Source: Psococerastis gibbosa (Eukaryota; Arthropoda; Insecta; Psocodea; Psocidae). From it: a DNA stretch of 64,000 nt. The translations under genes were made by a program, and so were the position numbers. The DNA is taken from contig OZ020484.1 of NCBI GenBank assembly GCA_963971405.1, forward strand, positions 18,228,001-18,292,000, in the 5' to 3' direction. The notes below the pieces were generated by a model. It had not been told where the DNA came from, did no database searches, and was given only the letters and a program-made list of their open reading frames with translations. Within the stretch, counting starts at the first letter, position 1, and each line of letters opens with the position of its first letter. Positions 2,168 to 42,555 of the stretch are shown piece by piece.

Positions 2168-2181
2168 TATTACTTACCATG

Positions 2182-17362: not shown

Positions 17363-17377
17363 GATTGTGTGTAAAAT

Positions 17378-18566: not shown

Positions 18567-18992
18567 GGCGCCCATTCCACATACGTACAACGTCAATGAA
18601 AATTATGAAATTGAAGGACATTTCAATTTCTCATTGATGGGGGCCATTCCATGTTTTTCAAAAATTGACAATTTTCAATTGAAGCGTATGCGCCAAATTT
18701 GTGAAATTTGTTTCTTGAAATTGTATTTGTTTTCTTCGTCGCCTTATTATTTAATCCTTATTATAATTTTTATACCGAAATGCTTTCTTTTTAGAGAAAT
18801 CAATTAAAATAGTTGTACTTGTCATATCACATGACGCCATTTTTTAATTTTAGATTGTTTGTTTCATTGTTTGTGATTTTACTCTATTATCAATTGATCA
18901 TTGATCAATTTTAACAATGGCATAGAGTAAAATTGAAATGCCCTTCAATTTCATAATTTTCATTGACGTTGTACGTATGTGGAATGGGCACC
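18567..18992. mobile_element. Harbinger-like foldback MITE, arm type 1 with core A
   Basis: The element starts GGCGCCCATTCCACATACGT and ends with its near complement ending GGGCACC. The left flank is TTA and the right flank TTT. The arms contain ACGTACAACGTCAATG then a GAAATTGAAGG block. The interior (core A) contains AGAAATCAATTAAAATAG, CATGACGCCATTTTTTAATT and a minus-strand-symmetric ATCAATTGATCATTGATC. The copy at 30362-30799 is almost identical. The interior is shared with the inner units at 37339-37581, 38192-38444 and 42237-42484, which have different arms. No coding capacity. Confidence 0.85.
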
Positions 18993-19264
18993 TTTTATCA
19001 AACAGCACATGCAAAAATTAGCTCTAGATATATTTTCAAATTGTTGAATTTGTTCAATAAGGCACTGGAAAATGTTTTTCAATTTGGAACAGACGTTGAC
19101 ACAACCGAAATTTGAGGATTTAGAAAAAACGGGACTGGCTGGATTCGAACCCACGATCTTTTTCAAAACGGGGCATCACCTCTTACCTCTTCAACCTTAG
19201 TTTAACGTCAGTATTATATACCATATAATACTGGAATATATTGAATACAGAATTAAAACCCCAT

Positions 19265-19404
19265 GGCGGGGTTTCCATTGACCTCGCATTTGAGCGTAAG
19301 CGTGACATTGGCCTGGCAACAGACATTTTTAGACTGTCTTTAATGTCTGCTACCACGTCAATATCTCGCTCACGCTCAAATACGAGGTCAATGGAAACCC
19401 CGCC
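19265..19404. mobile_element. Harbinger-like foldback MITE, arm type 4 with core B
   Basis: A 140-bp palindrome starts GGCGGGGTTTCCATTGACCT and ends AGGTCAATGGAAACCCCGCC. Its centre is core B, GTCTGCTACCACGT and complement around GTCTTTAATGTCTGC. The flanks CAT and TAT are a near match to a 3-bp duplication. The arms (GAGCGTAAGCGTGACATTG) resemble those at 27206-27311 but not those of other copies. Confidence 0.8.
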
Positions 19405-20202
19405 TATTGGTGCTTTTGTAAGTCGATGGCGAGACTTGAAATATGACGCCATATCATGGCAACCCCAGGTCTTCCCGCGTTTTGGTCCACGAACTCCACA
19501 GTTTACAACACTCACATGTATTTATTATTTCTTAATATTTACAATTTTTATCATGCATAAGCTACCTTATCTAGCATATTTTACATTTTATGCTACAACT
19601 GCCTACTTGCAGCACAAGCCCTTTACTAGGTTGCATGATTAAGATTATCCTCCGAAACCTGGTGGTTGGTCGACAGCTGCTACAAGTCATTTTTCGTGCG
19701 TAAACACGATTATGCTTTTGTAAATCATCCTGTCCACAGCTCCCGTGGACTATTAGTGAATTGAGCTGCGTAAATGAAGTCAATCAGTCTTATATCGTCC
19801 ATCATCGCGAGTCAGCCATGTTCCGAACTGATGAAACTCCAGGATTCACCCCCATTTGGTTTACATGTAGGCTTACGAGCATACGAATGCGATAATGTAC
19901 CACCTATAGGCATATTCCATTTCTTTGCGACATAATAGTTATTGCATTGCACGTCGTTATAGTCACAGTGGGATACAAATAGTGGCAACGTTCTCTAATC
20001 AGAAATTTTTACGATACTATGTAACAATTTGGCGCATTATGGAGCCCAAACTCGCAGTTTATGTGCAGAATTTCAGAACGGCAACGCTTGGCGAAACATT
20101 TCAGTGACCAGCAAATGCTGCATAGATGCACTAACGGTATTTCTTTCACTGTTGGCATTGCTCTGGCGGCAGCAAGCTAAGTGTACATTGGAGAAGAGGT
20201 AA
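19405..20202. other. Intergenic, no gene seen
   Basis: No recognisable exon. SLU7 lies downstream on the opposite strand and ends at 20374. Confidence 0.4.
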
Positions 20203-20328
20203 GGCGGGGTTTCCACATACGTCAATCGTCAATGAGAAATATGGTAGCAGAATTTTTAGTATGTCTTTAATGTCTGCTAAACAATTTCACATGTCTCATT
20301 GACGATTGACGTATGTGGAAACCCCGCC
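20203..20328. mobile_element. Harbinger-like foldback MITE, 126 bp, TAA duplication
   Basis: The palindrome starts GGCGGGGTTTCCACATACGT and ends ACGTATGTGGAAACCCCGCC, with TAA on both sides (20200-20202 and 20329-20331). The centre is a shortened core B (GTAGCAGA..TGTCTGCT). It lies 46 bp beyond the SLU7 stop codon, so it is probably in or next to the SLU7 3' untranslated region on the minus strand. Confidence 0.85.
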
Positions 20329-20373
20329 TAATGAGTCCCACAAACCAGGAGACACAGCAACAATTTTCCTCTA

Positions 20374-22445
20374 TTAGCGAAGAAAGTGAGCCATAGGATC
20401 ATCCATTTTTCTTTGCTTCATTAAATATGCTTCCATTTCAGCCTCCGTCGGTTCTTTAACATCAACCATACTGTTGTATGGTCGCTTCCGCTCGTCGAGA
20501 GATAGTATTCTATCCGCTTCCTTACGCTGTTCCTCTTGTTTTCTTATTGCCTAAAAATAAATTATTCCCATATCAATAACTGTAGAGCAGTCTAAAGAGT
20601 AGACGCACTTGACTATTTCAATTTCAATTTTCATTAGAAACGTATTTTTATTTTATCATATTTTCACTGTGTCCCCCCTTGAAAATCATGAAGAAATTTT
20701 ATTATTTTAATGTAAAACCTTAAAAGACGACCGGAGGGGGAAAAGCTTAATGAGTGTATAGCCTGAATCAAATATCTCATGAAATATAAAACTTGGGAAA
20801 AACATAAGAAATTTTCCTGTGCATTTTCATACATGACATGTACCTCTTTCTAACACAGATTGGCCACAATTATTGAGTTTTACTTGTACATAAAAGATTG
20901 GTGTGGTAGCCCCGAGGAAGGAGTTCAAGAATTGTGTTTTTTGTGTGAATTGGTGTTAGTGAAGGCCACATTTCATACATCGAAATGTACAGGAGCATTT
21001 CTGCTGGTTTGACGGCTATTTTGACTGTTACATTACTGTAGCTCAGACAATAATTGTGCCTATGGGGTTTTGATGCATTGTACTGACTATTAAAAAATGT
21101 CATAATTGATTTGAGCTAGAGTTTCACGGTTTTATGGGTTTGTTTGAGATAACCAGGATTCCCAAATATCATATTTATTTATACTTTTGAGTTAAATTTG
21201 CTGATCTTGATCTTTGATATTCGTATTTATAGTCCTATTCAAAGTTATTTCTAATCCAATGAACACTTTTACGCATTGTAAATGCTTATTTTAGCACAAG
21301 ATTCAGAAACAAATAAAATTGTCTGTCATTAGCCTATAAAGTTTAGTGTTTTTACAAATGGAATGACGAAATTTTACCCCAAAAGGACAAGTCATAACTT
21401 ACTTCTTTCAACTGAATTTCGAACGACTTCTTTTTTTCTTCTTTTTTCTGTTTTTTAAGCTCCTTCTTTAGCTTCTTTTTTAGCTTCTTCTTTAGAAGTT
21501 TCTTTTTGACTTTTGCAGCTAATTCCTTATCCAGTCCACTCAAAACAGAATCGCTCTGAAAAAGAAATACACCATACAGTATGCATTTTATGCCTAGGAA
21601 GATAGGTAACACCAGCTAAACAGAATCCTCGCATGTTCTACCCTTGCTATTTGCGAACTTCTGTATGTATCTCCTATTTTTAGTATTCTTACAGATGAGA
21701 TGCCACAACCTTTAGACAAAAACGTACGCTTCCGTTTCTTTCCGCATATTTTATACAGGAACAGCCTCCAAACCCAACTTTATTTTGTTGTAGACTCCAA
21801 AACTAACGCCAAATTGCAGTAGTGGCCATTCAATCACATATCTAGTGACATGTTCGTTTATTATTGAATGGTAATACCTCTGAGGATGAGTCAACAGCAG
21901 AATCGTCATTAGTTGTCGGTACAGGTACTTCGGATGTGTCTGGAATCTGCTGGGCAGTACTGCTACCAGCTGACGTATCAAACTGCTTTCCACCGTCACC
22001 AACGCAATATGCATTCTGCAACAAGGACAACACTTAAAATATCCGTAACAAAAAACATCTGTTATGCAGTACCTATTAATTGCTGCAATGATCACATAAA
22101 GTACAAAATGATTCAATAATTTTAAGGCAGGAACTGCAAGGGCGTTGGGGAATGCTTGCTGATATGATTGAATAACGAGCACATGGCGACCATCAAGAAT
22201 TAAAAGAAATAGAACACAGTATTTATTCGATATCATTGATTTTATTTATGTATTAAAAAACGTATTTCATTTCGTTCCATTAGTGGTCAGCCAGTAGGAA
22301 GGTGAAACATTTAATATTGGAATAGTGGTGACCTCCCAGATTGATTTCCCGAGTCGAGTCTTCTTCATACTTCCGTATAGAAAAAATTCATGCGCCCAAC
22401 CAATCAGTGTGAGGCCCGCCATTTTAGGTTATTATAGGAAGGTTG

Positions 22446-22476
<31 letters not shown>

Positions 22477-25400
22477 CAAAAAAGCTACATTACACTAATT
22501 CAATATTACTGATTCCATTATATTTAGAGCCATAGTTTATGGGATATTAAAAAAAGTGGCGAACCAGTAACCATCCTGAAAATGTTGCGATGGAAAACTA
22601 TTTGTTCAGTTTTATTTTATTCATATGGCATACCTTTATAAAGGAATGGCAACATTTATATCCCCATTGGCCTGCTCTCCAGTAGGAGCCAAATACTGAC
22701 GTGTGGTTACCAGGAATTACATCCTCTTCATACTTAGATCGAATAACTGGCTTCTCGTCACCCTGGAATAACCATAAAAAAAAACAAATCAGCATTAAAA
22801 AAGGGGTAAAGGTACAAGGATAAAAAATATTTCAGGTATGACCCCAATTTAATATTTCTCAGCAAGAATTCAAAGATGCAATTTTTCAAGCTTTCAAAAG
22901 TAGGGCTCTAATCTTAACTTCATGTAAATAAACACACAAGCTTATTTAATGTTTTTGTCACTCAAAATATCGCTAATGGTCCGGTATTATAACACATCAA
23001 GATAGATTCGAAAACTGAGAGTGACTGCAGGCGATATAACGCAATATACTATACGCATATATATATATATATAATATTTCAAGACTACCGTCGCTGTCGA
23101 ATCGAATATAATAAAAGTTTTAACCAGCCTTTAGGAAATCCTTTAATTAAACGTACAGGTCTACGTACCGCCCAATGTCCGTACCTTTATGACTTTCCCA
23201 GAGCGTGAATACTCCACATATTCTTCTGTTTGAGCAAGTAAAAGAGCTTTTGGTGGAGCTTTAAGATGCTCAGCACCTCCATACTTCTCAAGCACACTAT
23301 CTTGAATTTTGTCTTTGTACTCTTCCTTCTTCGACTCATATACTTTTTGAAGCATTTCCAGCTTAGTAGGTTCAGCTAGAACATGTACATCTACACCCTT
23401 CTCATAAGCCTCCCACGCAAACGATTGCGCCTGCGAATGTTTTCTCGTGTCACCCGTGAAGCGGACGAAATTTTCACCAGCATAGTCAGTGCTGAAAAAA
23501 ATTGATTAGGTGCTTACAAACAGGTGCCTTTCTTGGAACAATGTCGATATTTAAGAGCTTATTTCGCCTTGCATTTAAATGAAGAAATACAAAATTGGAA
23601 TTCTATGGTCAGGATATGCATGGTGCACCGAAATGGTTGGAGATGTAGAATATAAGTAAGTGTAAAACTAGTTTAAACATGTATACCTGATACTATTATG
23701 TACTAACTTTACAACTAGCGAGGTATGGCCATACCTGAACTTTTTTATTAAGACAAAACCAAAATTTAATATTTTCTCTTAATAGAAGAGATGCGCCGTT
23801 AAAGTAAAGTAAGTAGAAGAGATTCCCTTTAACGTGGAAGAATGTCTTAACTGTATCTGAATTTTTTTATGATCTTCGTTCCTGGGCAATCGGACTGAGG
23901 AGGATCAAAATTTTAAAGAGAACGTCAAATCACCGTTCAAAATAATGCACCTGACAGTTTTATTCAAATTGTACCCTGCTACATTTTCTGGCCATGCTTC
24001 GGAGGACATGTAAAGCAGGCGGTCCCGGGTCTACCTAGTTGAAAGGGCTTTATAGCCCTAACTCCGTTAGGTTGGCTTAGTAATAGAACAAAAAAGTTGT
24101 TATTTATTTATTACTAATATAATTATTATATTTTTGTTTCTTACTCGTTATTGTCTGCGGTGGGGTCAGGATTATCTCGCATCGATCGAGTTTTGGGGTC
24201 GTAATATGCAGAATCAGGATCCAAGTTCCGTAGATACTTGGCTGTGTCCTCGCGAATTCTTAAATTTCTTACTGTAATCCGTTGTTTGCTATCAACTTTC
24301 GTGCCAGGCATGTCGAAATCATCCACATACTTATCTTCATCTTCTTCGTCATCTTTCTCTTCTTCTTGTTCCTGCGAAAATAAATAAGAAAATAACGGGT
24401 CTTGTAGGGGGGGGGAGGGCTATTGTGCTCCAAAACGCAGATAGACCGGAAATTTCTGACAGAGTGACAGCTTTATCGGTAAACTTCATAACGGTATATA
24501 ATCTTCGTAAAGCAGCACTCCAATAGGCCAGGTATAAATAATATAAAGAAAAATCACTATATTTGCTCTCTACCCAGTAACGGCTCGTGGTTGTTTTTAA
24601 AAGCAATCATTCAAATGTGCAACAACATATAAACGTTGCATCTACTCGCATACTACGCATAGTTATTTTATTGAATATTTATTTTGGTCACACCAATTTT
24701 TTATATGCTACTGGGCGGCTCCTACAAGTTCCATGTCTTTCAATGGTAAGTGGAATCTCAAGCCGAGGGTCACACCTCAACCTAACACTCACAGTAATTA
24801 TTTAAAATCTGTACATGAACTTAAGGGGTAAAAATAAAGCAGACTATTGTCTTTGGTATATACACTGTTTATAGTTAAGTAGACATAAAAAGAGAAGAAA
24901 TGTCTGTACCAAAAACCACAGAAACAATAGGATAGAATGGAAACTTAAAAATAATAAAGGATTGATGTTTATAGTTACTAATACCGGTTCATCCACGTTA
25001 TCGAGACGATCAGCTCTTAACTGTCTCTTAGCTTCTTCCACCTTAGCATACTCCTCAACAATGGCCTGATGCATAGACGGGTCATAGCCAGCCCATCTGT
25101 CACGCTTGCCATCAAAATCGTGGGAAAGTTCCGGCTGGAGTAATTCGTCTGCTCCACTTTGGACACCAGTGAATTTGGCACCAATTTTTCTTGGTCTTTC
25201 CATGCAGTCCTTTTTCTGGTGAGTCATTGCTCCACAGTTTTCACAGGAACCCGGGCGATACTTCTTAGCTATATTGCTCTGAAATAAACAATATTCTTTT
25301 GAGTTGAATTGCTGCATGTCGTTTTATGTTGCCCCGAACTATAATGAAGTATATTTATACAAAATGAAGCCGGCCACCTTGCCAAGTTGAATCCAGCGGA

Positions 25401-26968
25401 CCAGAGCAGGTTCAAAGATGCAGATAACTTGGTAGTGTGCACAGTGCCGGTAGGGAAACATGGTAGGACTTGTCCTGGTCATCTCCGAACTAATCGTGTG
25501 ACTTCACTGTGTTTCCCGAGTGGTTCGGAATCCACTATAATCAGGAGGTCCACTGTCCAATGGGTCCACACCGTGGCCTGGGACTGTGTCCAACCATACT
25601 ACTATACAAAATGAGCTGAAGAAGCACAAAACGTAAAAACCGCAAGAGTTCAAATTATAATAAATCGCACCCAGACGAATGTATTGACCATTGGCGTGGC
25701 ATATTTAAAGCCTATCGCGTGTTGACTGTATATACAGTATTTGGCCTGACAGACAAAATTTGCTATGAGAGAGTAAGAACAATGAGACTGGCTAGGATAA
25801 TCGGAGATTATTCTTTGCTTTGGTTACATTATGTATACTTAACTACCATATTAGTTATTTTTTTATGATAATTTATTAACTTACAGTGTCAACGCCACGC
25901 TTATACCACTCGTCTAACCTAGAATATTCCTTTTGCTTTTCCGGTTGAGGCCGTTGATGTTTGAGTGTTGGTCCTGATGATCCATAATACCAAGGCGCCG
26001 CAGATATGTATTGGGGAATGTGAGGATTAATGTCCTTACCCTCTTCATCCACCGCCGCAGGAGCAGTTCCTGCCTAAAAGATAAAAATAACAATGATTCA
26101 TTTGCAGTACTATGCTACTTATTTTTCTTTGTTATGATAAGGCGCGGGATCCTTGGGGATATTTGCGCCGTTCCTCTTCTTCTAATACCTCCTCTATCGA
26201 AGATTTTCGATCATCATCGCAGTTGCAGTCTTGTTGACTTTCCTAGGGAATTGTAATGCAGTGGTTTCCCGTTGCCTTTTTCATCCTTCTATCATTGACT
26301 TTCCATTGAGTTCCTTCGCCTTCGGGGCCAATTTCCCAACCCCAGGACAAAATTGTGCCCTGCACAGAAAAAACTATGTTTTTCGCTAATCCCGGCTCAA
26401 AATGTGTTCAGTCACCATTACGCTTCCATCACTCCACGAGGTGTATATTGGGGAATTTTGCCTCTGAGACTATAAGGTGTTACTCATAAGCTCAGCTACT
26501 TTGAAAACTTGCGCCATTAGGGCCTTAGGCGGGGGTTTGTGATAGGTGGTACTGGTTAAATAATATGGATTGCGGAGTTGACGACAGTGCTATTGCTGAG
26601 AAGATGGGGTAGAGTGTGAGGTGGTGGCAGGTTTTGCCTGGGTGCAGAAGTATGAGTTAAATTGTCAAATTGGTATTGCAGTGACCACATACAGGAGCTG
26701 GTTTGCCGCACATCAGATGGCCATGGGTGAACCTTGTATTCATTTAGAACTCCCAGCCCCCAGAGAATGGGAATCCTAAGGCAGCCAGTGGCCAGACTTC
26801 CTCATTCACTTTAATATAAGCTTAATAACACAACACACATACCTTTCTAGCTTCCTCAAGTTCTTTAGCTTTCCGCCAATCCTCCCTCGATTTCTTTTTT
26901 GGTTCGTCATCACTTGCTGCTTTGGATCGTAGTATCTCTGACAGCGGTATATTTGGTGTGCTGGCCAT
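20374..26968 (-). CDS. SLU7: SLU7 pre-mRNA splicing factor, nine coding exons
   Basis: The coding exons are 26843-26968, 25885-26073, 24985-25278, 24145-24371, 23185-23491, 22634-22762, 21878-22015, 21403-21555 and 20374-20550. All have GT/AG borders and matching phases, and sum to 579 residues (human 586). SLU7 acts in the second catalytic step of splicing, where it helps select the 3' splice site with PRP18 in the spliceosome. The CCHC zinc knuckle is at C117, C120, H125 and C130 ([14 protein letters not shown]). Conserved blocks follow: [68 protein letters not shown] and a C-terminal [27 protein letters not shown]. Exon 8 encodes a lysine-rich helix, a possible localisation signal. Introns carry a SINE, an R4 repeat and a long T tract. 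It shares a promoter region with CDIN1. Confidence 0.97.
22450..22477. repeat. Poly-T tract in SLU7 intron 6
   Basis: An uninterrupted run of about 27 T bases lies on the plus strand within the 22016-22633 intron. On the transcribed strand it is a poly-A run. No SINE body lies next to it, so it may be a simple tract or a decayed tail. Confidence 0.8.
23971..24112 (+). mobile_element. S1 SINE, 5'-truncated, SLU7 intron 4
   Basis: It contains the S1 body (ACATTTTCTGGCCATGCTTC, GTAAAGCAGGCGGTCCCGGG) and tail (TAGCCCTAACTCCGTTAGG, then TTATTTATTTATT). The tRNA-like head is missing. It sits antisense to SLU7 and ends about 30 bp from the exon 4 splice donor at 24145. Confidence 0.85.
25380..25612. 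repeat. R4 repeat in SLU7 intron 2
   Basis: This stretch matches, in inverted orientation and with moderate divergence, 56205-56480. Shared blocks are GTTGAATCCA, GCAGGTTC, TAGTGTGCACAG, GGGAAACATGGTAGGAC and CCACTATAATCAGGAGGTCC. The family is unclassified. Confidence 0.6.
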
Positions 26969-27167: not shown

Positions 27168-27205
27168 CATCGATCCTGTGTTCTACGAAGGAGCCACTTC
27201 ATGAA

Positions 27206-27311
27206 CCTCGTTTTGCAACGTGAGCGTGACATTGACGTAGTAGCAGACATTTTTAGACTGTCTTTAATGTCTGCTACCACGTGAATGTCACGCTCACGCT
27301 GCAAAACGAGG
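27206..27311. mobile_element. Foldback MITE remnant in the shared promoter
   Basis: The palindrome runs from CCTCGTTTTGCAACGTGAGC to GCTGCAAAACGAGG. Its centre is core B (GTAGCAGACATTTTTAGAC and complement), identical in plan to the element at 19265-19404. The outer GGCGGGG termini are eroded. It separates the TATCGATA motif from the CDIN1 start. Confidence 0.75.
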
Positions 27312-27477
27312 TCTATCGAATAGACGCTGAACAACGGTAAATCATCCATAATCGTTCGAGATTCGATATTTCGATATTTAAGAAGAAACTAACATGGCAG
27401 TTTTTTATTATTATAGAAATTATTATTATTTTATTCTAAAATATCGCTAATTCGCTACTATCCTTTATTTTTTTTAA

Positions 27478-30400
27478 ATGGCTGTTGTTGTGAGCACAGA
27501 CGATTATTGTAACATTATTGAAAAGATCAGTTCATTTGATGGTCCAGAAGAGGAATTGGAAAATTTGCTACTAACCGATTATAGGTAGGATGAAAAGATG
27601 CAACAATTCAACTAATAACCAGCTTAGAATAGTATTGTGATCAAGATAACTATGTACCTATTAATAAAGAGATTATCTAGGCCCTAGGGTAACATTTAAT
27701 AAATAAAGTTAGATGTAAATCTGCCAAAGAAAATTACGACTATGCTTCTCGCCAAGCGCTAGCCTTAATGTCATCCTAGCCTAAACGTATTGTGGGAGAC
27801 GCGGACAGGTGATGTCAATGCCTGAAAAGGGGTGAAGGGCTCAACAACTGAACTGGTTCATCTCAACTCGTAAATACCCCCCTGGAACAGTAGACTAAAT
27901 CTGTAGAATATGCTCGAACACCCAATAGAGTAGTGAGTAGATATAACCAAATAGGTACCCTTGTAACTTTTGGATACACCCCGGGAAAAATTAATTTTCA
28001 AAATGTTACCAACAATTTAGGAAAATCCAATCGCAATTCAACATTAAAGCCTGAAATTGAACAAAAAAAAACAGCCGATGTTGTGGTCAGCAAGAAACAA
28101 CCGTTATCCAATTGACCAATAAAGCTGTACCGCTACCTGCTGCTGCTGATGTTAAGGTTCGTTACACACGGACTATTCTGCCAGTCGCCGACGATTTCGC
28201 CGACGTTTTTTTCATTGTAGGCATAGAGCTTGGAGAATGGTCGTTGCAAAACCACAGAGTCTAATTCAGAATTAGTTACCATTAGTGCAGACCACTTTGC
28301 AAAGCTAATACCAATTACCCTTGTTGCTTCATATAGGTTGCCAGTGATAACAATACGAAGTATTGGAGCACAAGTGTTTAAGCGACGCATGAAATTAACT
28401 CACGGTAAAGTGAAAAGTCAAGCAGCTGACCTTTATTATCGGTGGGTATTTTGTTTTTTTAGTCATTCCAAGGACTAGTGCTCTATCTTCGATTTCGGTG
28501 GCAACGTGGTAGCTTGTCCTTGTGCGAGTCTCTACACACCTTGCAATAGGAGACGTGTCGTAACACGGCACAAGTACCTATTAAGTTACTTAGTGAAGCG
28601 ATTGAAGAGGTTAATCGCATACATTCATTACATTGTTTGTATGCGATTAACCTTTTTTCTAAAGAGAGAACTAAAGAATCTGCAATAGGTTATAAAATCC
28701 CGTTTTAACCATACACTATGATGTTCTGAATCATATGATAAGAAGTAACTTGAGTCCTTACTTCCTCCATCCATAACTAGCTTTAATAATTAGACATCAT
28801 AATACTAGATTATTGTTTTTGTTGCAGATATGACCTAGCAGTCCATGAAAATGATCCTGAGGGGATTATTATTCGGCTTGCCTACGAATTAAATTCCTCT
28901 CCTTGCTTAATTGCGAAGCTAATTCTAGAACAGCACCTGAAGTTAACATTAAATAAGTCGAACATATCGGAAACTGATTCAGGTCTCTCTCCTGAAGTCA
29001 ATATTAGCTTAGATATGTCTCTCGATTCAGAATTGGAACGGAGGGACGGAGTTTCTGTTAGCAGTATGATGCGTGATACTACTCTCATACCGGATAGCCG
29101 ACTTTCGTACGAGATTCTGTTGGTACGTATGCTAATCAGGAATGGTAGCTAAGAATTAACACCGACAAATGGCAACATTGTTTAAAGGTAACTTTACTGA
29201 TTACAAGTATGATAAATTGGGTTAAAAAATTCAAAATACATTACAAAGCAAACTCCAACAGGCAACGAATAAAACATAAGGAACGCCTTATATCACGAAC
29301 AGACAAGAGACAACACTATTCTACCATGCCTCACTTATGGCGTTGAGTTTGTTTTGTATTTTCTATTGTTTAAAAAAAAAAAAAAAAAAAAAGTATTTGT
29401 TTTGTAACTGCAAAGGCTTTCACGGCCGGAGTCAAATGAAGAACCAGTAGAATCCGGGCTGATGGGCCGTGGTCACTCGCTACGGAGCCACCGAGGTACA
29501 ACCTTAGAAGTCTACGCAGCGCCATTGAAGATGTTGTCCGCAGATGTTGACGAATCGTTTTGAAGTTCACTTTCAATTCGACCACGGCCCATCAGCCCGG
29601 ATTCTACTGGTTCTTCAGTATTTGTATTGTTTTGAACGCTAAGATATAAGAAAACATCCCATAGCTGCTATCATTAACTATCTTCCCCATTAATCCCTTG
29701 GACATTGCTTCATACCATTCGGCAAACCTATAGGTCCATAGTATGCGGTCGACCTATTGCTCATCGCAATACGTAGTACAACGTTTTATATGTTCTGCGT
29801 TTGGCAAAGTTCATATGCAGTCCTTCGTCCTTTTTATAGTCTTTTTATAATTCCTCAATATTGTTTATAAATGTTCAGAGCTATGGGATCCAGATTTTCC
29901 CAGAATTGGACTGAGAAACAATGATTAATATCGGTAAATTGACTCTTCCTTTATGGAAAAATTGTTATTACCCAGAATATCGGTTTAACTGTCTACACTT
30001 CTAATGTGCTTCAAAGCTAAAACGATATAAAACATTTGTAACTTTGACCTCGTCCCTGGCTAAATATTTAGTAGTAGTAGTAGTTGTGATTTGAAGTAGT
30101 GCATCGCACTAATGATTAATCCAGACACTACTGCTCTACGTCCTCTTCTTTTTTACATCCTCCACAATTTTCTTTCTGAAATCCTTCAAGTTTGCAGCAT
30201 CTTTGATAGTTTTCTGCAGCAGATTAAACATTTGAAGGCCTTCATGAAAAATGCTCGTTCCACTGGTTCGTCTTCTATACTCGAGCGTAATGCAATCTCT
30301 ATTTCTAGTTCCATAGTTGTGCACTTCACTAAAAGTCATTGTAAGGTCTATCATGTGCTTAGGCGGCCATTCCACATACGTACAACGTCAATGAAAATTA

Positions 30401-33400
30401 TGAAATTGAAGGACATTTCAATTTTTCATTGATGGGGCCATTCCATATGTTTCTTCAAAACTTGACAATTTTCAATTGAAGCGTATGCGCCAAATGTTTG
30501 AAATTTGTTTGCATTTGTTTCATGAAATTGTTTTAGTTTTCTTCGTCGCCTTATTATTTAAACCTTATTATAATTTTTATACAGAAATGCTTTCTTTTTA
30601 GAGAAATCAATTAAAATAGTTGTACTTGTCATATCCCATGACGCCATTTTTTAATTTTAGATTGTTTGCTTCATTGTTTGTGATTTTACTCTATGATCAA
30701 TTGATCATTGATCAATTTTAACATTGGCATAGAGTAAAATTGAAATGTCCTTCAATTTCATAATTTTCATTGACGTTGTACGTATATGGAATACCCGCCT
30801 AAGGCATTAACCCTGATATAATACTCCAGATAAACGACATGACATCGACGTACACATTTTCTTGGATGGTGAGCATGTCTAATTCCTCTATCATTTCAGC
30901 TACCCTCTTGTCGATAGGAACATTTAGTATTGACCTTAGTCCCCTGTTCAGGGTCACTTGTATTTCCACTAGAACAGAACTTTGTGCATAATACAGTAAG
31001 GTGCTGCAGTATTTTATGTGGGGTTTAATGAAGGCTTCATAGATTAATTTCTTCGTTCTTGTCGGCAATACATATTTAACTTTCCTCAAGATAAACATTT
31101 TCTGATTTAGTTTGGATATTAATTTGCGAAAATGTTCTTTAAAGTTTAATCTATTATCAATAGTGGTGCCAATATATCGAAACGAATCCACCACTTCTAA
31201 TCTTTCACCATTCATTTGGATATTGAGATCATAATCACAGCCTTTCTTTGAGACCAACATTGCTTTAGATTTCTTCACATTGAGGCACAGTTTATTAGCT
31301 GCCAGCCAGTACGTCAACCGGATCAGCTCTTCATTTAAGATTTCCTCCAATTTCTCAACGGCTTTGCCAACCACATAGATCAGGGTATCATCCACGAAGA
31401 GGTGAACGTGGCATCGCTTCAGGCATATCAAAGCCAAATAACCAAAAATATATAGCCTATAATATTTTTTACCGTTTCAGTGCACGTTATGCGACACTAA
31501 GTACGGCAGTATTACTGAACTGGGAAACAGGTAATGTTTTATTATATAAATTTTATAACTTTGTAATATTTTGAACACATCATAATGAGAGTTAACTTTG
31601 TAAAATAACACATAAAAACATATAAAACATAAAAATATCGTCACGACCGGTTTCGACAGATTGTCGTAGGCAATGTTTTCTTTATTACTACTATTAGTTT
31701 TTAAATTATCTTTTGGTCACGTCTGTAGTCGTCACTTATCATGTTCAGGTTATCATTTAAAAGTATCAAGTTATTTATGCATTGCACGAGGCCTTTCCTA
31801 AATATACCCATAGTTTGAACTTCAGGTGGGGAGTGACATATCATTTATGGTAGAGAACTGGAGTTTCGTAACTTGACATAAAGGAAAATCTATTGGTACA
31901 AGTTAATGGCAATGGTGCAATATTTTTTAGGGCATTAGAGACAGCCTCACAGTAATCGAACAATTAGGATAAAGCGACCCGAAAAGTCGCCCCCTTCCCC
32001 TGACAATGGGCTCCGCCCTAATATGAACACAACAGGCAATGTAAGTTCAACCAACCTTTTGTTAAACAAAGGAAAATCTGTCTGTCTGGCCTTAGTCCAT
32101 ACTACATCCAACCCTGGGTAGCTTGCTTTCACCAGTAGGGAAAAAAACGTGTCTGCTGGGCATGTTTCTTCCCGCAACATCGCAAATAAGCAGTTGGAAA
32201 GGAAAAGGGAATCCTCGGCTGGCCTTTCTCCATGTGTTGACCAAATATACTGGGTTATGATTGTAGCGTACTTTTAAATAAATAAATAAGGACTTTTTAT
32301 TGTTTCTATTACTAAGCTAAACTAGCGGAGTGAGGGCTATAAAGCCCACTCTTACACTCAACTAGGAAGGCCAGGCATCCCCTGCTTTACATGCCCTCCA
32401 AAGCATGGCCAGAAAATGTAGCCAGTGTGGGACTCGAACCAACAACCTTTCGGGTGATAGAGTCCGGACCACTACGCTACATGTCTTGACTTTGACTTTT
32501 AGAGAAAGTAGCAGCAAAAAGTAAGTTGTGTGTTTTTTTTACAGATTGGTTGGGGAGGAACATGAGCGTCGGTTGTTTCTGGAGGCCAAGGGGCTCGGGG
32601 TGACCTTCCAAGCAGAAAAGGATTTACGAGGTGGTGGCTTTGACAAAACGCCGGACTTGAGATTAGCAATACCCATAGTTGTGGAGGGATCTGTTGTAAA
32701 TTGGATTGAGAGCAAAGCTCTATTTGGGGGTCCCGAGGAACATGTGGACTACATCAGAGATCAGTATAATAGCTACTGGCTCAGGTAAAAATTATATTCA
32801 TAATACTCTCCTTATTAACTTTCTATTCCTTTCTGTCACTCATGGTTAAATTTAAAATTCTTAGTACAGTTTTAAGGTATAATTATAAAATACACGACCG
32901 GTTTTGGCCATCGTCATGTGGAAGAAACTAAATAAAAAATAAAACACAAAAGTATACTTTTGTAGACGTATCTGTATTTTTTAATTATAACGTAAAACTT
33001 TACTAAGAATTTTAAATGTTTCCGTGAGTGAGGTAAAAACAACTTCTTGATGTTTCCAGTTTTCTAAATTCAGACGCATTCTTTTTAGATGTGGTAGCTT
33101 AAAATCTTGACAAGAACTGTCTTATCGGATATACCTAGGTTATACATGTGAGTTTCTGAACAGTATCTTGCTGTGATCAACCAACAACACCTACTACGCC
33201 TGCAACAACCTTCCCATGTCGTTATTAAATTGTTTCCGTATGAATTTTTGGCCATTGGCAAACTGGTATACGTTCTCGATGTCAACCTACACCGGCTACA
33301 AGCGATAATGGACGAGCTGAGACCAGATTACCATTAACGCAATGAAACAGGCGAGAGCATGACTTAACCAAGTACAGATACGAGTCTTCCCATGTCGTTA

Positions 33401-34232: not shown

Positions 34233-34382
34233 ACTACAAATCTCTGAACCACTCATCAGGTTTGTGTTTTTACTGATCTTGGCAGTGTACCAAATCCGAA
34301 GTATATACAGTATGTATTAATGTTTAATTGTAAATAATTGTTGACTGAACGTGGAAGTCGCCTGCAACAGCTTTGGGGGTAA

Positions 34383-34796
34383 ACAAAAAATAACAAAAAC
34401 TTAGAGTTTTAGAAAAACTTGTTATAACAACCCGAATTAGTAAAACCCAAATAATCGTTAAGAAATTAACTTTGTCTAAGAAACCCACTTGTGTTAGTAT
34501 AAAACCCTGAGCGCTTTCGGAAAGAACTGCCATCTACAGAGGGAAACCCACTAGCACAGTTACACCTTATCTGCGATTTGAGACTTGCTCAACTCGAGGA
34601 GAAGATGCAAATGTGCAAACGCTCAGGGTTTTATACTAACACAAGTGGGTTTCTTAGACAAAGTTAATTCCTTAACGATTATTTGGGTTTTACTAATTCG
34701 GGTTGTTATAACAAGTTTTTCTAAAACTCTAAGTTTTTGTTATTTTTTGTTTATTAAAATGAAATACCACGAAGTCACGAGTAATCTAATTATTTA
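34383..34796. mobile_element. Penelope-like foldback after CDIN1 stop, 14-bp duplication
   Basis: The perfect direct repeat AGCTTTGGGGGTAA lies at 34369-34382 and 34797-34810. Between them are two long inverted arms (about 34383-34512 and 34620-34752) containing CTTAGAGTTTTAGAAAAAC and AAACCCACTTGTGTTAG. The right end carries GAAATACCACGAAGTCACGA, as at 10265 and 51150. The insertion point lies 150 bp after the CDIN1 stop, so it may sit in the 3' untranslated region. The element is broken and has no coding part. Confidence 0.8.
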
Positions 34797-34810
34797 AGCT
34801 TTGGGGGTAA

Positions 34811-35423: not shown

Positions 35424-36760
35424 GTAAGTTTATTCCCTTTTAATACTATTACAATTCATGTGACTGTTTTCTGTACATAAAGTTATAAAAATAAGTTTAC
35501 CTCGAGTAAATATAGAATAATTGGAAGGGCCTAAAATATGTGAGCAATGATCCAAAGCTTTGCACTCGACCAAAACCGGCCTCATGTAGACGTCACCTAT
35601 CCAATAGGCCTTGAAAAAGAAATAAAGCTTGTTGTATAAAGGATGTGCAAGGTAGATATCGATACGAAATGGTTAGCAAGTGGCCCTCACAATAGCTCAC
35701 TTTCTTCCCGATTGCCTAACCTACTCGGTCCAACGACCCTCCTTCCTACGAGCACCCTCCTCCCTCTCCGATGCGCTAGGAAACAAAAAAAAACAGCCAC
35801 AAATAATATTATACTATTCCTAAAAGCCTCTTCTTCAAACACAAAAAAAAGCAACGGGTATCATGACGATGTTAACCAAAATCCTCCAGGCTACCTAAAC
35901 GTGAAACTTCAGAAATCGTTTTTTACTTGGCATTATCTTGTCGGGCAGGCTGCGCTCTATTGTTCATTTTTTTAGTAAATTATATTGTATTCTTATTTTC
36001 AAAGTTTATATGGAATTACTAAATTCCCCAAAACTACAGAAAAGACTGGTACGGGTAGAATGATTCAGTCCGTATGTAACCAGGCTATGGTTGTAAATAA
36101 GTAATTACTTTCCGGTATTGCTCGTTCAACCCCACGAATGGAGTTACAGATAGGGTCTTCAAAGCTCCCTAACATGAAATCAATTTAGGGTTATCTGGGA
36201 CCGTCTGTTTTAAATACCTTCCGAACCGATGTTTGATTCGAAAACAACCGGTATGAGAGATGAGGCAACTCCTACACTGCGCTGCATGCACTGACGTTAA
36301 TTAACACATTCGAATTAAACGTTCGCTAAAGTAAGCCAACTGACCGGCTCTAAATTGACGGCGGAATGGCCACAACTAGGTGTCGCAAATCGGAAACAGC
36401 TAAAGCTTACTTGAAAATGTATCAGACTTTAAATTTGTACGGGCCTTATAGACATAAACTTTTATGCAATTAATTCCGCTTTAAATTGTCAAATTGAATC
36501 ATGGCTGAGCTGAAAAACGTGAGTCTAGAGAGAGATTTGATATGTGGCGGAGAAGCACTGAAACGATGGGATAAAACTGCCTGGGGAGTAGTTGGAAATT
36601 AAATGTCGGAAGGAGGCTCCCGCCACTCACCCCTGGGAACATACAGATGGCTCTTCATTTCTGTGCTCGTAGATTATAATATTTTATACTGCATATCCGC
36701 TCTGATTTGTCTTACACTAATCATACTAATGCCGGGCTATGTATGTTATTACTAGGAATC
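35424..36760. other. Intergenic, no gene seen
   Basis: A ~110-codon open stretch at 35643-35975 has low-complexity Ser/Thr/Lys content and no family resemblance. Nothing else is recognisable. Confidence 0.4.
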
Positions 36761-37040
36761 AGTGGTGTAACTACAATTCGATGGCCCCGGTGCAAGATAA
36801 GGCATATGGGCCCCTAGAAAATAGTGATGGTAGAAATGGCCCCATAGATCAGCCAATTAGCCACTAGTAAATCATACAAATGCGCGCCAAGTCGCCAAAA
36901 TTCAAATCCTGCATTAATTTTAGTTCTTTTTGTAAATTTTGTTGAGTTTAATTTTTAAATATTTTCATGACTTTTCAAGAAGTTACATACAGTACTGTAA
37001 GTATAGGGCCCCGGTGCACTGCAACGTTTCGCTCCATAGT
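36761..37040. repeat. MITE-like scrap, CAGTGGTGTAACTAC end
   Basis: The block begins CAGTGGTGTAACTACAATTC and continues GGCCCCGGTGCAA. GGCCCCGGTGCAC appears again near 37006. CAGTGGCGTAACTA starts are common in hAT-like non-autonomous elements. The opposite end is not visible, so the call is tentative. Confidence 0.4.
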
Positions 37041-37267
37041 ACCAGACCAGAATATGTTGATGAATCACTATTGTTACATTGCACGTGAATTTTATATTTT
37101 AACATTTTGCTTCTTGGTGAGTAAACAGTTACTCTTATGAGTCTTTACTAAATGTACTATGTGGGGTAAATTTGGTGGGAAATTAGCTGACTTAGCGTCG
37201 GCAATTTTAACCGGTTTTAAAAATAGACCGGTCCACATGTGTAATGTTATTTTAGACTCTCCGTTTA

Positions 37268-37652
37268 GGCGCCCATTCCATTGACCGGCTAGGGCTATTT
37301 CCAAAAACAGTGACGTGGTAGCAGACATTCAAGACATAGGTTGCGTTTCCACCGATCTCGCATTGCAGAATGCAAATGACATTGACGGAAATTACAATTT
37401 TTCTTTTTATAGAAATCTATTAAAATGTTTGTACTTAACATATCCCATGACGCCATTTTGTTAATTGTAGTTTGTTTGTTTGTGATTTTACTGTATGATC
37501 ATTGATAACATTTAACTATGGCATAGAGGAAAATAAAAATTTCCGTCAATTCTGCAATGCGAGGTCGGTGGAAACGCCACCTAAGTCTTGAATGTCTGCT
37601 ACCACGTCACCGTTTTTGGAAATAGCCCTAGCCGGTCAATGGAATGGGCACC
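37268..37652. mobile_element. Nested Harbinger-like foldback, TTA duplication
   Basis: The outer element starts GGCGCCCATTCCATTGACCG and ends CGGTCAATGGAATGGGCACC, with TTA on both sides (37265-37267 and 37653-37655). The outer arms hold GGCTAGGGCTA and core B (GACGTGGTAGCAGACATTC). At its exact centre sits an inner foldback, 37339-37581, with arms GTTTCCACCGATCTCGCATT and core A. The same outer and inner combination recurs at 42166-42555. Confidence 0.9.
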
Positions 37653-37764
37653 TTAAGTAATTCGTATTCATATCGCGGTTGCAAGTTTAGAGTTTAATGG
37701 GGGAAAAAAGGTGTGTAGTGTGTATTACAACATTTGTCTTTAAGCCTGATGCAATTACTGCTAA

Positions 37765-37819
37765 GGCGGTTATTCCACCGACGTCAATGGTAATTATTGA
37801 CGTCGGTGGAATAGGCGCC
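37765..37819. mobile_element. 55-bp foldback with TAA duplication
   Basis: The whole element is two arms, GGCGGTTATTCCACCGACGT and complement, around a TAATTA centre. TAA flanks it on both sides (37762-37764 and 37820-37822). Both cores are missing. It is a minimal member of the family. Confidence 0.85.
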
Positions 37820-38120
37820 TAAGCAATTTAGTTATTAGCGTTAGGTAGTAAAACTCTATGCTTCACTTGTGGCCAAATGTTTGAGATGAAGAGCGCTCCT
37901 CGCGGGCGAATGTGGCAATAATTCGCCCCATTTTATATAATGTTACTTACACTGGACAAATTATAATGTAAATCATTCAGACCATTCCGGCCGATATTAA
38001 ATGAAATACTGTCTTCCTAGATTATAATTAATGTCTCCCTTGTATATTGTTTCTGAGTGTCCAATATAAAAATACTCGAATGCTACATTGCAATAAAATA
38101 CAGACCTCGAGTGTTCCTTA

Positions 38121-38515
38121 GGCGCGGTTTCCACCGACCTCTAAGTGCAAAATACACATACGGTGACGTGGTAGCAGATATCATTAATAAAGGCGTGGTT
38201 TCCACCGACCTCTCATTGCAGAATGCAAATGACATTGACGGAAATTTTTGTTTTACTCTATGCCATAGTTAAAATTGATCCATGATCATAGAATAAAATC
38301 ACAAACAAACAAACTAAAATTAAAAAATCGAGTCATGGGATATGTTAAGTACAAACATTTTAATAGATTTCTATAAAAAGGAAAATTCAAATTACCGTCA
38401 ATGTCATTTGCATTCTGCAATGAGAGGTCAATGGAAACTCCGCCTAAGTCTTGAATGTCTGCTACCACGTCACCGTATGTGTATTCTGCACTGAGAGGTC
38501 GGTGGAAACCCCGCC
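38121..38515. mobile_element. Nested Harbinger-like foldback, arm type 7
   Basis: The outer arms start GGCGCGGTTTCCACCGACCT and contain AAATACACATACGGTGACGT and core B. The inner foldback, 38192-38444, has the same arms and core A as the inner units at 37339 and 42237, but in the opposite orientation. Outer flanks are TTA (left) and TAA (right). Confidence 0.88.
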
Positions 38516-38854
38516 TAAATGTAAAATTGTAAGTTACCCCTTTCCGATTTTATGTCGGGTCCACTTCAAATGTCAGAGAGCTTAAACGAAAGGTAAGGGA
38601 TGAGATGAGAGAGAGATGCCGGGGGGTTGAAACCTGGGCTTTGACATTATCGACTGCGAAGGTCCAATTAGATACGTAATTTAATCAGCGGAAAAAACGC
38701 TTTAAGGACCAGGGGCGGGTTGCATTAAAGAGGGTTGCTAGAAATAGGGTGCTGAGACGGGCGAGGCGCCACATTTTGATTTTGAGCTTTCCTTTTTTAC
38801 CATTGTTCAGCCTACAGTTTCTATCCTGTTATTTGCAAATTGTTTCCTTCTTAT

Positions 38855-41080
38855 GGCGGCTATTCCACTGGCCAATTTGCTTCTGAAGTAAGGTACGCGT
38901 AATTAAACACTCGATATTAACATTTCCATCATCTATTTATTGTACACACACTCCTACTCCTCTCCTAACGGTCCTCAACACTCTCCTCTACAGTCTCCTC
39001 CCGTACCACGCAGGGCACCAACTTATATATCCATTCAGCACTAACCTACTTTGAGTTCATACACACTATATGCCACACCCATACTATACCACACTTCACT
39101 ATTCGTCGTGCCGACGTGGTAGCAGACATCATTAATCAGTCTCTACCATATTATAACTTAATTTATAATCATTGATATACATGGATTGCTACCACGGCAC
39201 CTAGCCCAGGCTGAACAAATGTCTTCACTTTTGGTCACGTAACAAAAAGGGTTATTATGGCAAGAAGTGGTTGACTCCATTGCGTTCAATGCGATTTAGA
39301 CGTATTTCATTGCAAGATATGTCGAGAAACGGGGGAAAATATTACTTTTCACAAGTAAGTGTTCGCATGGTTTGGTCATTAGGTCGCCCCCCCCCCCCCC
39401 CCGAGAGAAATAGCATTATTCTAGTTAGAATGGACTTTTGAAGGAAATTAAGAGAAATTATTACTCAAGTAAGGGAAACGCGATATTTTTTGGGCCACCG
39501 CCCCCCCCCCCCCCCGAAAACTTTTTCTGAAACCGTCCCTGCCCCGAAATGAAATGGCTTGACACTAGATAGAATCGGAGAGGAAACATAAAAACCACTA
39601 TGTAATACCCAATGAAATTTTTACCCCCCCCCCCCCCCCAAAAAAAAAATCCTGGCTACGGCCTTGATTGTCCTGTATAATTTTAATACTAATTATTATT
39701 ATTATTATTGTTTCAACTTCAATGCATTTTTTAGTTAGTCAAGTTTAAAATTATTTTAGGAAGCTGATAATTCCAGCAGTCTAAGTAGGCCAAGTCCTGC
39801 AGAACCTCAGTTTTGATAGTGAATAAAAATAGCGAAACACTATAAGGCAAATTTACAGAGGAAAAAAGTGTTTTTATTTCCCATTTGGGCGAATTTCGTG
39901 GCTTTCTTGCAAATCACACGTACTGCAAATTATTAGGCTTATTGATATTGACATCCCTAAATCAACAGCATTGGCCTACTACACTGCAATATTTTTTCAT
40001 CGATGATAGCTCACAGAATATTCACGTGTAAGCATAATAAGTAGGCTATGAGATTTAAAAATTCGAATGCCGGTGTTGGTGGATCAGGGACGGATCCACC
40101 TCATGGGGGGGGGGGGGGGGGGGGTAGCTGTTGGTCAAAATAGGAAAATCCTATATAGTATCGATTAAATCAGAGCGTTATAAAAATTAACTTATAAAAT
40201 AGATTTACTGATTTTTTTTTTTGGGGGGGGGATATCCGCCCCCCTGTCTCCGTCCATGGGGTGGATCCAGGGGGGAACCTGCCGCCCTGTATCCGCCCAT
40301 GGGGTCTAGCCAGAGTGACTACTTATTCTTTTTATATTCTGCTTATTCTAGTTGAAGTGTAGTCAAGGACAGGTGAAGGGGGGAGCTGCCCCCAAAATCG
40401 TATAAGCTAGCCTGTTGTAAGTTGCCTAACTTATTACGTTATAATGTAAAGGATACTGCATATGTTTATTATATTTTGAGCCAAATTACCCCCCCCCCCC
40501 CCCCAATGGGCTGGATCTACTCCTGGTATAGGTAGGAGCCTAAATTTATCAAGTTGAACACTTCAAATTTAGTCCCAATGCAATTAAATAGACGAACATG
40601 GTTAGATTGGACTAAATAGTTTGGCTATATTTTGTTAAATTGCTGCTTGACACAATTTTTCTTAGTACCATATTCCTAACTAAATATTAATAAATCTTCA
40701 TAAATGCCGGTGTGTGACCATAGAATATTGTTCTATAATAAATAAAAAAATATTACAAAAACAGAAAATGTCAATTAATCGTATTAAAAAAATTATTGAA
40801 ATACATCAAATTTACACGTAAGTGTGTATGGCATGGAACGCTTCTGCCATAATATCCAAGATATCAGGTTTTGTCCGTTGCCGACAGCCCTAGCGCTCCT
40901 GGTGTCTTTCCATAGTGTATATATATATATAGTTCAGTGTTTATAATAGATAAGTTAAGTATCTACTGTAGATAATCTACATAATAGTCTCCTTAAAATA
41001 TGGCATAGACTTATCAATGATGTCTGCTACCACGTTGACACATCGATTAGTGAAGCAAATTTGTCGGTGGAATAGCCGCC
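38855..41080. mobile_element. 2.2-kb composite foldback, TAT duplication
   Basis: The left end GGCGGCTATTCCACTGGCCA and right end GTCGGTGGAATAGCCGCC are inverted, and AATTTGCTTC is mirrored by GAAGCAAATT. TAT flanks both ends (38852-38854 and 41081-41083). Core B occurs near both ends, with a core-B-like hairpin at 39109-39201. The interior has been enlarged by hAT-like sequences. A stretch near 40938-40998 matches the loop of 41310-41535. No coding part was seen. Confidence 0.55.
39380..40525. repeat. Cluster of hAT-like ends with poly-C/poly-G runs
   Basis: One element appears to span 40085-40525, from CAGGGACGGATCCACC to GGCTGGATCTACTCCTG. Other ends are CCGTCCCTG near 39523-39535 and CCTGGCTACGGCCTTG near 39650-39666. 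Each end is backed by a run of roughly 10-20 C or G bases. These runs may be collapsed or misassembled. Superfamily is inferred from the CAGGG..CCCTG termini. Confidence 0.55.
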
Positions 41081-41309
41081 TATGTAAAGCATACAATGTT
41101 GGTTTTATTGGTCAGTGGTATAAATCAATATTACATTGATTGATCTATATGAACATGAGCCATGGTAATGGCTGGACTTTATAAATTTATGATAGCAATA
41201 CCATTTTTCTAAATTGGTTATTTCATTATTTCAGCTTCCTACTCAATATTTAGGTAGTAAAACGTGTAGCTCCCATCTCTCCATCTTGAAATTTCGTAAT
41301 CAAAATTAA

Positions 41310-41535
41310 GGCGGCCATTCCACCGGCGATTTTACTTCATATTTTGATTTTGTGAATTTTGTCATTGACGTTTGTTATTTGTTTTAAGGAGACTGTAAGG
41401 TAGTAAGGTAGATACTTAACTTATCTATTATAAATTAAGTATCTACCTAACAGTCTCTTTAAAGCAAAAAACAAACGTCAATGACAAAATTCACAAAATC
41501 AAATATGAAGTAAAATCGCCGGTGGGGTGGCCGCC
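41310..41535. mobile_element. Harbinger-like foldback, 226 bp
   Basis: The arms are about 100 bp, starting GGCGGCCATTCCACCGGCGA with TGTCATTGACGTTTGTT further in. They surround a loop holding AAGGTAGATACTTAACTTAT and its complement. Flanks are TAA on the left and TTA on the right. This arm sequence is unlike every other copy except for the first ~13 bases and the TTGACG block. Confidence 0.85.
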
Positions 41536-42165
41536 TTACATCCAGCAGCCCTACCGTGCCGTTTACAGATTACGATAAATAAACACCGGGAATATGACAG
41601 TCTGCCCTCCTCTGATAGGCGGGTCAATTCTCAATTATACCGCCCATGTTTAACTTATATGGAGGAGCACATCGCGTGTCAACTCGCCACTTTGCCGCTC
41701 ACAAATATTGTGAACAAAACTCTAATATTATTTTTATTTCGCGTTGTTGCTGTAAAATAAAGACGAATAATGATTCAAAATTGAGTAAATAGTAAATTGT
41801 TAGTTTGTTATCTGTGAATTACCACCATTACTCTTAAGGTAAGATGACCGAGCCTTCTATACAATAATTTTTTTACCGTATTTTGCTTTTTTTTCTTCAA
41901 ATATCTGGACCCAATAATCCAAGTTCTAAATGTTGAATGTTGTTCTTTGATCTTTTTTGCTTCTATAGAAGTCTGCTTCTTTACATTCCTACAATTTCTT
42001 ACATGTTTAAACGTGAATAACCGCAATTTCAATTTTAGATTCTCATGAATAAAAAGGTGCCCTCTCTTTATAAGTTAAACATGAGTGTTGAATTGGCAAT
42101 TGAAGTGCTCACTTCTAAGTTTTCTACAACAACAAAAGCTAGGTTGTAAAATAAGTAATTGCTTA

Positions 42166-42555
42166 GGCGGGGATTCCATCGACCGGCTAGGGCTAAATAC
42201 AAAAACGGTGGCGTGGTAGCAGACATTCAAGACTTAGGCGGATTTCCACCGACCTTGCATTGCAGAATGCAAATGACATTGACGGAAATTACAATTTTTC
42301 TTTTTATAGAAATCTATTAAAATGTTTGTACTTAACATATCCCATGACGCCATGTTTTAATTTTAGTTTGTTTGTGATTTTACTGTATGATCATTGATAA
42401 ATTTTAACTATGGCATAGAGGAAAACAAACATTTCCGTCAGTGTCATTTGCATTCTGCAATGCAAGGTCGGTGGAAACCCCGCCTAAGTCTTGAATGTCT
42501 GCTACCACGTCACCGTTTTTGTATTTAGCCCTAGCCGGTCGGTGGAATCCGCGCC
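42166..42555. mobile_element. Nested Harbinger-like foldback, TTA duplication
   Basis: The outer arms (GGCGGGGATTCCATCGACCG, GGCTAGGGCTAAATAC, core B) and the inner foldback (42237-42484, arms GATTTCCACCGACCTTGCAT, core A) repeat the plan of 37268-37652. TTA lies on both sides (42163-42165 and 42556-42558). Inner and outer junctions are at the same base as in the other nested copies (CAAGACTTA|GGCG). Confidence 0.9.

Follow-up and report, generated by a model that had tools for sequence, protein, structure and literature searches.

Mirrored outer-arm differences among related families of palindromic transposons in Psococerastis gibbosa

A 64,000-nucleotide stretch of the genome of the insect Psococerastis gibbosa (contig OZ020484.1, positions 18,228,001 to 18,292,000; hereafter the window) carries a series of short palindromic units, which belong to one large clan of non-coding miniature inverted-repeat transposable elements (MITEs). 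Matching arms of palindromic MITEs across diverging families are usually ascribed to descent from one founder. The original prediction for these units was that each acquires a new arm sequence, which is then copied to the other side. Here, we show that the arms of the four types tested are constants of families found throughout the genome, and that in related composite families the outermost arm differs in the same way on both sides, with the core and a buried copy of the same segment nearly unchanged. Rare copying from arm to arm in source elements, followed by amplification, is probably the best account of this pattern. The assembly comprises 409 Mb in 68 contigs, of which ∼299 kb was read, one third of it chosen by similarity.

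Composite elements and the paired change of their outer arms

Three units in the window, at 37268, 38121 and 42166, are composites, with one MITE nested in the centre of another. In 38121 and 42166 the outer and inner ends are spaced 71 bp apart on both sides. Most of the G-type composites that were read have CATTCAAGACTTA followed by GGCG at the left junction and CGCC followed by TTTATTAATGATATC at the right one, and we therefore predicted an empty host (K) in which CATTCAAGACTTA is joined directly to TTAATGATATCTG. This sequence was found at 110 places (53 + 57) against 0 for the control, and 99 of the 100 places listed have exactly that form. Since the empty host exists, the composites are clan members inserted at a TTA in the centre of another member. 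The right flank of the nested insertion has one T beyond a plain TTA duplication. Three solo hosts were read; the arms of L113 and L114 resemble those of the inner MITE, and L112 differs. In another locus, L070 (C15:7738035-7738675), the outer arm is found in direct layers at C15:7738083, 7738152 and 7738223, with spacings of 69 and 71 bases.

A genome-wide search with a 43-base pattern, allowing up to 2 mismatches so that strongly diverged hosts would escape, recovered 71 solo hosts. All of them end in ATTGACG or GTTGACG, and none (0/71) has CGGTGACG, the arm end typical of G and B composites. Within the reach of this pattern, the result indicates that the outer arms changed after nesting. 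The same result bears on the idea that the variety of outer arms reflects separate insertions of one inner MITE into different palindromic hosts. That idea draws on the facts that nesting is real, that an empty host exists, that the arms of solo hosts vary (L112 versus L113 and L114) and that G and B composites have different right junctions. It is opposed not only by the solo hosts but also by the lack of a symmetric host for the junction of B and B', save for one locus matching a loose pattern, and by the near identity of the core and the homologous buried segment in all four composite families. We reject independent nestings as the origin of the new arms on the 0/71 result, which covers hosts within 2 mismatches of the pattern, and regard the idea as a whole as quite improbable.

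The junction of B and B' is itself suggestive. In both families the right outer module is an exact mirror of the left one up to the inner end (TTA, inner unit, TAAGTC), a structure that would not result if a symmetric host had simply received an insertion with a 3-bp duplication. Genome-wide searches for such a host in its empty form gave 0 places with a 40-mer and up to 3 mismatches, and 1 locus with the looser pattern CATTCAAGAC N0-20 GTCTTGAATG. The simplest account would be that in the founder of B and B' the right arm was overwritten by a copy of the left one.

Comparison of the consensus sequences of B' (21 copies), B (4 copies), G1 and G2 (3 copies each) shows where the composite families differ. 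The four share the left junction, the subterminal module and the core almost base for base: the core differs at 0-3 of 132 bases, a 4-base length variant being omitted, and left-arm positions 42-71 at 0-1 of 30. In contrast, arm positions 19-41 differ at 2-12 of 23, whereas the buried homologue of this segment differs at 0-2 of 23 positions on the left and at 0-1 of the 15 compared on the right. Between B' and G1, for example, the outer arm differs at 9 of 23 positions, the homologous buried positions at 1 of 23 and the core at 2 of 132 (Fisher test of outer arm versus core, 3e-7). Moreover, the differences nearly always come in pairs. Over positions 1-58 the same change is present on both arms in 10/10, 10/11, 8/10, 16/18, 17/20 and 2/3 cases for the six family pairs, which gives 63 of 72 mirrored outer-arm differences over six overlapping comparisons.

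Copying between arms does not account for the fast change at positions 19-41 relative to the buried control, for which selection on functional ends or end-linked mutation may be responsible. A bolder version would be that this ∼23-bp segment determines specificity and is driven to change by a contest with the transposase or with a silencing system, that a dedicated or strongly favoured copying process rewrites both ends as a pair and leaves the core untouched, and that buried arms leave the contest and stay nearly unchanged. We consider this version rather unlikely.

Units of the window and their families across the genome

A strict detector, requiring ends within 2 mismatches of GGCGNNNNTTCCA and an arm complementarity of 80% or more across a maximum of 58 bases, identified 7 outermost units in the window. 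It gave 0 in every one of 20 windows simulated with an order-1 model. The arms of these seven are 85-97% complementary. Relaxing the arm threshold to 65% raised the number to 9 by adding 20203 and 41310. Inner units lie inside 38121 (38192-38444) and inside 42166 (42237-42484), and partial units or single ends are found at 27205, 38855 and 41080. The ends and arms are as originally predicted, and the units are real foldbacks with GGCGNNNNTTCCA ends; 42166 has a fold energy of -166.7 kcal/mol, whereas its shuffled versions average -41.7 (z -26.8). Since there are 7 outermost units under the strict threshold and 9 under the relaxed one, the predicted figure of at least twelve is true only if inner and partial units are counted. 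Units in the window are 55-438 bp long, and they have the properties of foldback MITEs in being short and non-coding, with inverted terminal arms and high copy number. The only stop-to-stop frame of at least 120 amino acids that spans a unit (19229-19642) is a read-through of the whole palindrome. The units and their parts, in window coordinates, are as follows.

18567-18992, plus strand: family A unit, with mirrored arms of ∼62 bp and a core related to the B/G core; an extra end-like motif at 18639, on the left side only
19265-19404, plus strand: family F unit, a near palindrome of 140 bp with the subterminal GGCAACAGACATT / ACGTGGTAGCAGACATT module central
20203-20328, plus strand: family D unit of 126 bp, TAA on both sides
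27205-27312, plus strand: partial F-like palindrome, arms 27205-27251 and 27266-27312, 94% complementary
30362-30799, plus strand: another unit of family A, with greater divergence; TTA / TAA flanks
37268-37652, plus strand: family B composite, outer arm of ∼71 bp, TTA on both sides; end motif of the buried inner unit degraded
37765-37819, plus strand: family H unit, a 55-bp palindrome, TAA on both sides
38121-38515, plus strand: family G composite, a hybrid with one G2 outer arm (CTCTAAGTGCAAAAT) and one G1 outer arm (CTCTCAGTGCAGAAT); junctions asymmetric
38192-38444, minus strand: inner (buried) unit of 38121, core direction opposite to that of 42237-42484
41310-41538, plus strand: family E unit, with internal indels in the arms, flanks TAA / TTA
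42166-42555, plus strand: family B' composite, TTA on both sides
42237-42484, plus strand: inner (buried) unit of 42166, between TTA and TAA; outer arms on its two sides mirror images of each other

Two family E ends face each other 2.2 kb apart at 38855-41080, with TAT on both sides, and are possibly one long unit. Eight transposases of the PF13359 family gave no tblastn match at 1e-3 in the window, this interval included, or in loci L001-L028. Other long inverted repeats lie at 34380-34753, 1880-2174 and 17052-17367 (arms of 137, 102 and 74 bases, 93-99% complementary), and a scan for the end motif found no GGCGNNNNTTCCA pair at any of the three. A 225-amino-acid frame at 30799-31476 on the minus strand, which by eye resembles a fragment of a non-long-terminal-repeat reverse transcriptase, abuts the end of a family A unit.

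The size of the clan is indicated by the subterminal 18-mer module GACGTGGTAGCAGACATT, which has 24,101 exact occurrences in the 409 Mb against 0 for a reversed-pattern control. Its diversity was sampled in the window and in 20 stretches of 10 kb along four contigs, which together gave 20 units, the 18 of at least 100 bases being compared. Over arm positions 14-45, mean identity is 90.5% between the arms of one unit and 42.6% between units, the better arm being taken, which bears out the original observation of near-complementary arms within a unit and different arms between units. However, the further claim that a new arm is acquired unit by unit does not hold. In 8 of the 18 units (families A and B) the left arm matches an arm of another sampled unit at 97% or more, and the best other unit is 47-88% alike for the remaining 10, among which constant arms are established for 42166 and 38121 by genome-wide searches. 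The 40 best-scored genome places for the family of 42166, its own locus included, share 94-100% identity across 380 or more of the 390 bases; 39 other best-scored places match family A (18567) at 94-99% over the first part of the unit; family B accounts for 4 of the 20 random-stretch units; and the G1 form of the outer arm of 38121 has 440 occurrences within 3 mismatches. Each of the types tested (A, B, B' and G) thus recurs across the genome with its arms unchanged, and therefore units do not acquire private arms. Since arms are family constants where tested, much of the original pattern is that of families of one clan, each sampled once or twice, and another part of it is plain nesting of one MITE in another.

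Family-constant arms would also be expected if the MITE families were numerous and independent, their short ends having converged and each family having its own autonomous element, without any arm copying. The arms of A, C, E and H are indeed widely different, and the genome has 150 scored matches to PF13359 transposases. On the other hand, the 18-mer is common to 24,101 sites, and B, B', G1 and G2 combine a near-identical junction, module and core with mirrored differences in the outer arms. The common core with mirrored differences contradicts independent families for B, B' and G, and we judge this explanation improbable.

Copying between arms and exchange between copies

If the hairpin stem were repaired at every transposition, the two arms would be made identical at each jump. 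The consensus of B', drawn from the copy in the window and its 20 next best matches, is in keeping with this, having 125 of 125 arm bases mirrored. However, fixed differences between left and right survive amplification. In 7 of 8 family A copies the left and right arms differ at positions 3 and 52, family G has kept an asymmetric stretch at 59-70 and another at 84-85, and the B' copies L029 and L047 have in common a change on one arm that is not mirrored on the other. Since asymmetries are transmitted and private changes are hardly mirrored, copying at every transposition is excluded, and we reject repair at each jump as extremely improbable. In the 21 B' copies, 57 changes fall in the left arm and 55 in the right over 120 positions. 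Mean divergence between arms is 3.78% within a copy versus 4.03% between copies (P 0.039), a bare excess of similarity within elements. Copying in single dispersed copies is at most slight; the best candidate is the change at base 35 in L040. End bases 5-8 vary among copies of one family.

Family G provides a view of single-base changes in both arms. Its three subtypes (CAGTGCAG, AAGTGCAG and AAGTGCAA) differ by single bases. Of 56 loci examined, 22 were dropped (second outer arm missing, cut or not read). Both arms belong to the three subtypes in 28 of the 34 that have both, and 25 of these 28 are matched (9, 3 and 13) and 3 mixed, compared with a shuffle mean of 11.8 and a maximum of 23 in 100,000 shuffles. 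By itself this matched majority follows from common descent; it shows that the founder of each subtype carried its change on both arms. One-armed forms also exist. The G elements 38121 and L071 have mixed arms, in opposite ways relative to the core, and a change from AAAAAC to AACAAC at position 38 of family B is on both arms in L016 and L024 and on one arm in L010:4023. Such forms are predicted by arm-to-arm copying and also by recombination between subtypes.

This leads to a further explanation, in which exchange between copies, by ectopic gene conversion or recombination as proposed for the Drosophila element Galileo, moves arm segments about, and symmetry arises when the same donor serves both arms or when symmetric elements amplify better. 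Hybrids with a B-like second arm (L084 and L108) or a K-like one (L067) speak for such exchange. So may the flanks of the 58 units for which these were compared: 27 have a 3-bp match, 22 of these being TWA, whereas 13 have inverted TTA/TAA-type pairs (TTA/TAA in 8, TAA/TTA in 5) and 18 are otherwise mismatched, every class including some inner ends, which are not real outer flanks. Non-matching flanks are reported for chimeric Galileo copies (PMC3573991). Exchange between copies would, however, need two events for each symmetric family, and hybrids are in the minority, given that 25 of 28 typed G elements are matched. We regard it as unlikely to be the main source of the paired changes. The inverted flank pairs could mark either between-copy exchange or a variable cut.

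We argue instead for rare copying from arm to arm in source elements. The clan would consist of non-autonomous foldback MITEs of PIF/Harbinger type, with a 3-bp and mostly TWA target duplication. Families with constant mirrored arms, namely A, B, B' and G, are settled at many places. An inner MITE entered the TTA at the centre of host K, whose arms are nearly the same as its own, to give a two-layer composite, and a single nesting event was probably ancestral to all G and B composites. Among the composite families the outermost arm has come to differ, mainly at 19-41 and on both arms, with the core and the buried homologue almost constant. We suggest that source elements transferred a base change from one arm to the other, by template switching at the quasi-palindrome, by gene conversion between the arms or by gap repair, and that the symmetric element then amplified. 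Copying would be rare and not part of each transposition, leaving little or no trace in individual dispersed copies. It is conceivable that the terminal segment evolves faster than its buried copy because pressure or end-linked mutation acts on the functional ends alone. The originally predicted copying of an arm to the other side would thus survive in part. The mirrored outer arms of B, B', G1 and G2 point to some transfer in source lineages, and the one-armed forms (38121, L071 and L010:4023) and the B/B' junction, which looks like left copied to right, are consistent with it; the private changes of single copies and the asymmetries carried through amplification do not support it at the level of individual elements.

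Several observations weigh against copying in source elements. No copying event was caught in the act; the copying step is deduced from consensuses, of which G1 and G2 represent 3 copies each and B 4, and the order of arm states is deduced without a tree. The six family comparisons overlap and hence are not independent. The 20 B' copies compared with that of the window were its next best matches and not a random sample, and the 5 same-change pairs of the 21 do not significantly exceed the shuffle mean of 2.6 (P ∼0.10); two of the five involve end base 5, which is hypervariable, and one a CpG. In 6 of the 34 G elements the second arm is outside the three subtypes, being B-like in two, and therefore exchange between copies also occurs and could mimic arm-to-arm copying. 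The buried arms are not wholly constant either: the whole stretch 72-104 differs at 0-7 of 33 positions on the left and 0-3 of 33 on the right, the maxima being between B and G, with most of these differences inside the old end motif. For D, E and F the closest other unit sampled reaches a similarity of only 47-78%, so that family structure is not established for these three. Finally, a transposase with these ends was not found among the eight PF13359 representatives read.

Superfamily and relation to known elements

The flanks point to the PIF/Harbinger superfamily, for which a TWA target duplication is described (PMC4482050). A 3-bp TWA duplication is the commonest pattern among our units, with many exceptions. 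The AT dinucleotide duplication of ISL2EU elements was not found: TAA/TAA and TTA/TTA are commonest, and ATA/ATA, GTA/GTA and TTG/TTG match over 3 bases. Nor was the 7-bp duplication of Galileo, the duplications here being 3 bp.

The transposase search covered eight representatives of the 150 scored PF13359 matches, with ∼3 kb on each side and a fixed end motif. Pfam confirmed DDE_Tnp_4 in all eight, and GGCGNNNNTTCCA-type ends flanked the transposase in the right direction in 0 of 8. Two candidate partners were rejected. The element encoding a 384-amino-acid DDE_Tnp_4 protein is an insertion inside a family A unit (L051 ∼426-3645, 3' end at ∼L051:3645), and the one encoding a 375-amino-acid protein (L049) merely carries a family D unit (L049:4074-4235). 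The former is 100% identical to 39 other scored places along stretches of up to 2,846 bases, which suggests a very recent burst, and its first exon by eye resembles a THAP domain. The latter has long internal inverted repeats, and 21 places match the whole 5.2-kb query at 99-100%; its downstream frame by eye resembles a YqaJ-type nuclease, as in ISL2EU. Closely similar DDE_Tnp_4 matches occur five times over ∼300 kb (C3:25.54-25.84 Mb) and six times over ∼490 kb (C14:20.36-20.85 Mb), and are perhaps segmental duplications.

Comparison with known systems is limited to the accessible portions of the sources cited. Our units resemble the PIF/Harbinger-derived MITEs of the PHIS superfamily (PMC4482050) in their 3-bp, mostly TWA duplication, their short G-rich ends and their short, non-coding, high-copy nature. 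They are unlike these in their layered composites and in the two-sided change of the outer arm within one composite lineage, and no autonomous element with their ends was present among the eight representatives. Two element types with PF13359 transposases, which are abundant in this genome, have near-identical copies here and in this recall ISL2EU, whose AT duplications are absent from our units (PMC4482050). Galileo of Drosophila mojavensis, of the P superfamily, is likewise foldback-like, with subfamilies defined by arm sequence and chimeras that have the arms of two subfamilies and non-matching flanks; repair of one terminal inverted repeat (TIR) templated by another has been discussed for it (PMC3573991). 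It differs in its 7-bp duplications, its TIRs, which reach more than 1,200 bases, and its transposase superfamily, and its changes are extension and exchange, whereas here a short terminal segment changes against a conserved core (PMC3573991). Quasi-palindrome template switching makes the arms of imperfect inverted repeats more alike (PMC3820800) and is a possible route for the proposed copying step; it is known as a mutation process in yeast and Escherichia coli (PMC3820800, PMC7202029), while here it would have acted over evolutionary time in a mobile element. As judged from titles and the beginnings of abstracts, no description of mirrored arm divergence was found in the open literature, and the end sequence and module searched as text gave no related match there.

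The joint change of the two arms in related families offers a way to study how the ends of an evolving transposon stay matched. The shared core, the nesting and the buried copy of the arm serve as internal controls, so that the rate and the symmetry of arm change are directly measurable. Since a single assembly offers tens of thousands of copies of the module, computation alone could separate copying between arms from exchange between copies. Selection on the terminal segment, if it acts, would point to a binding site that decides which elements move.

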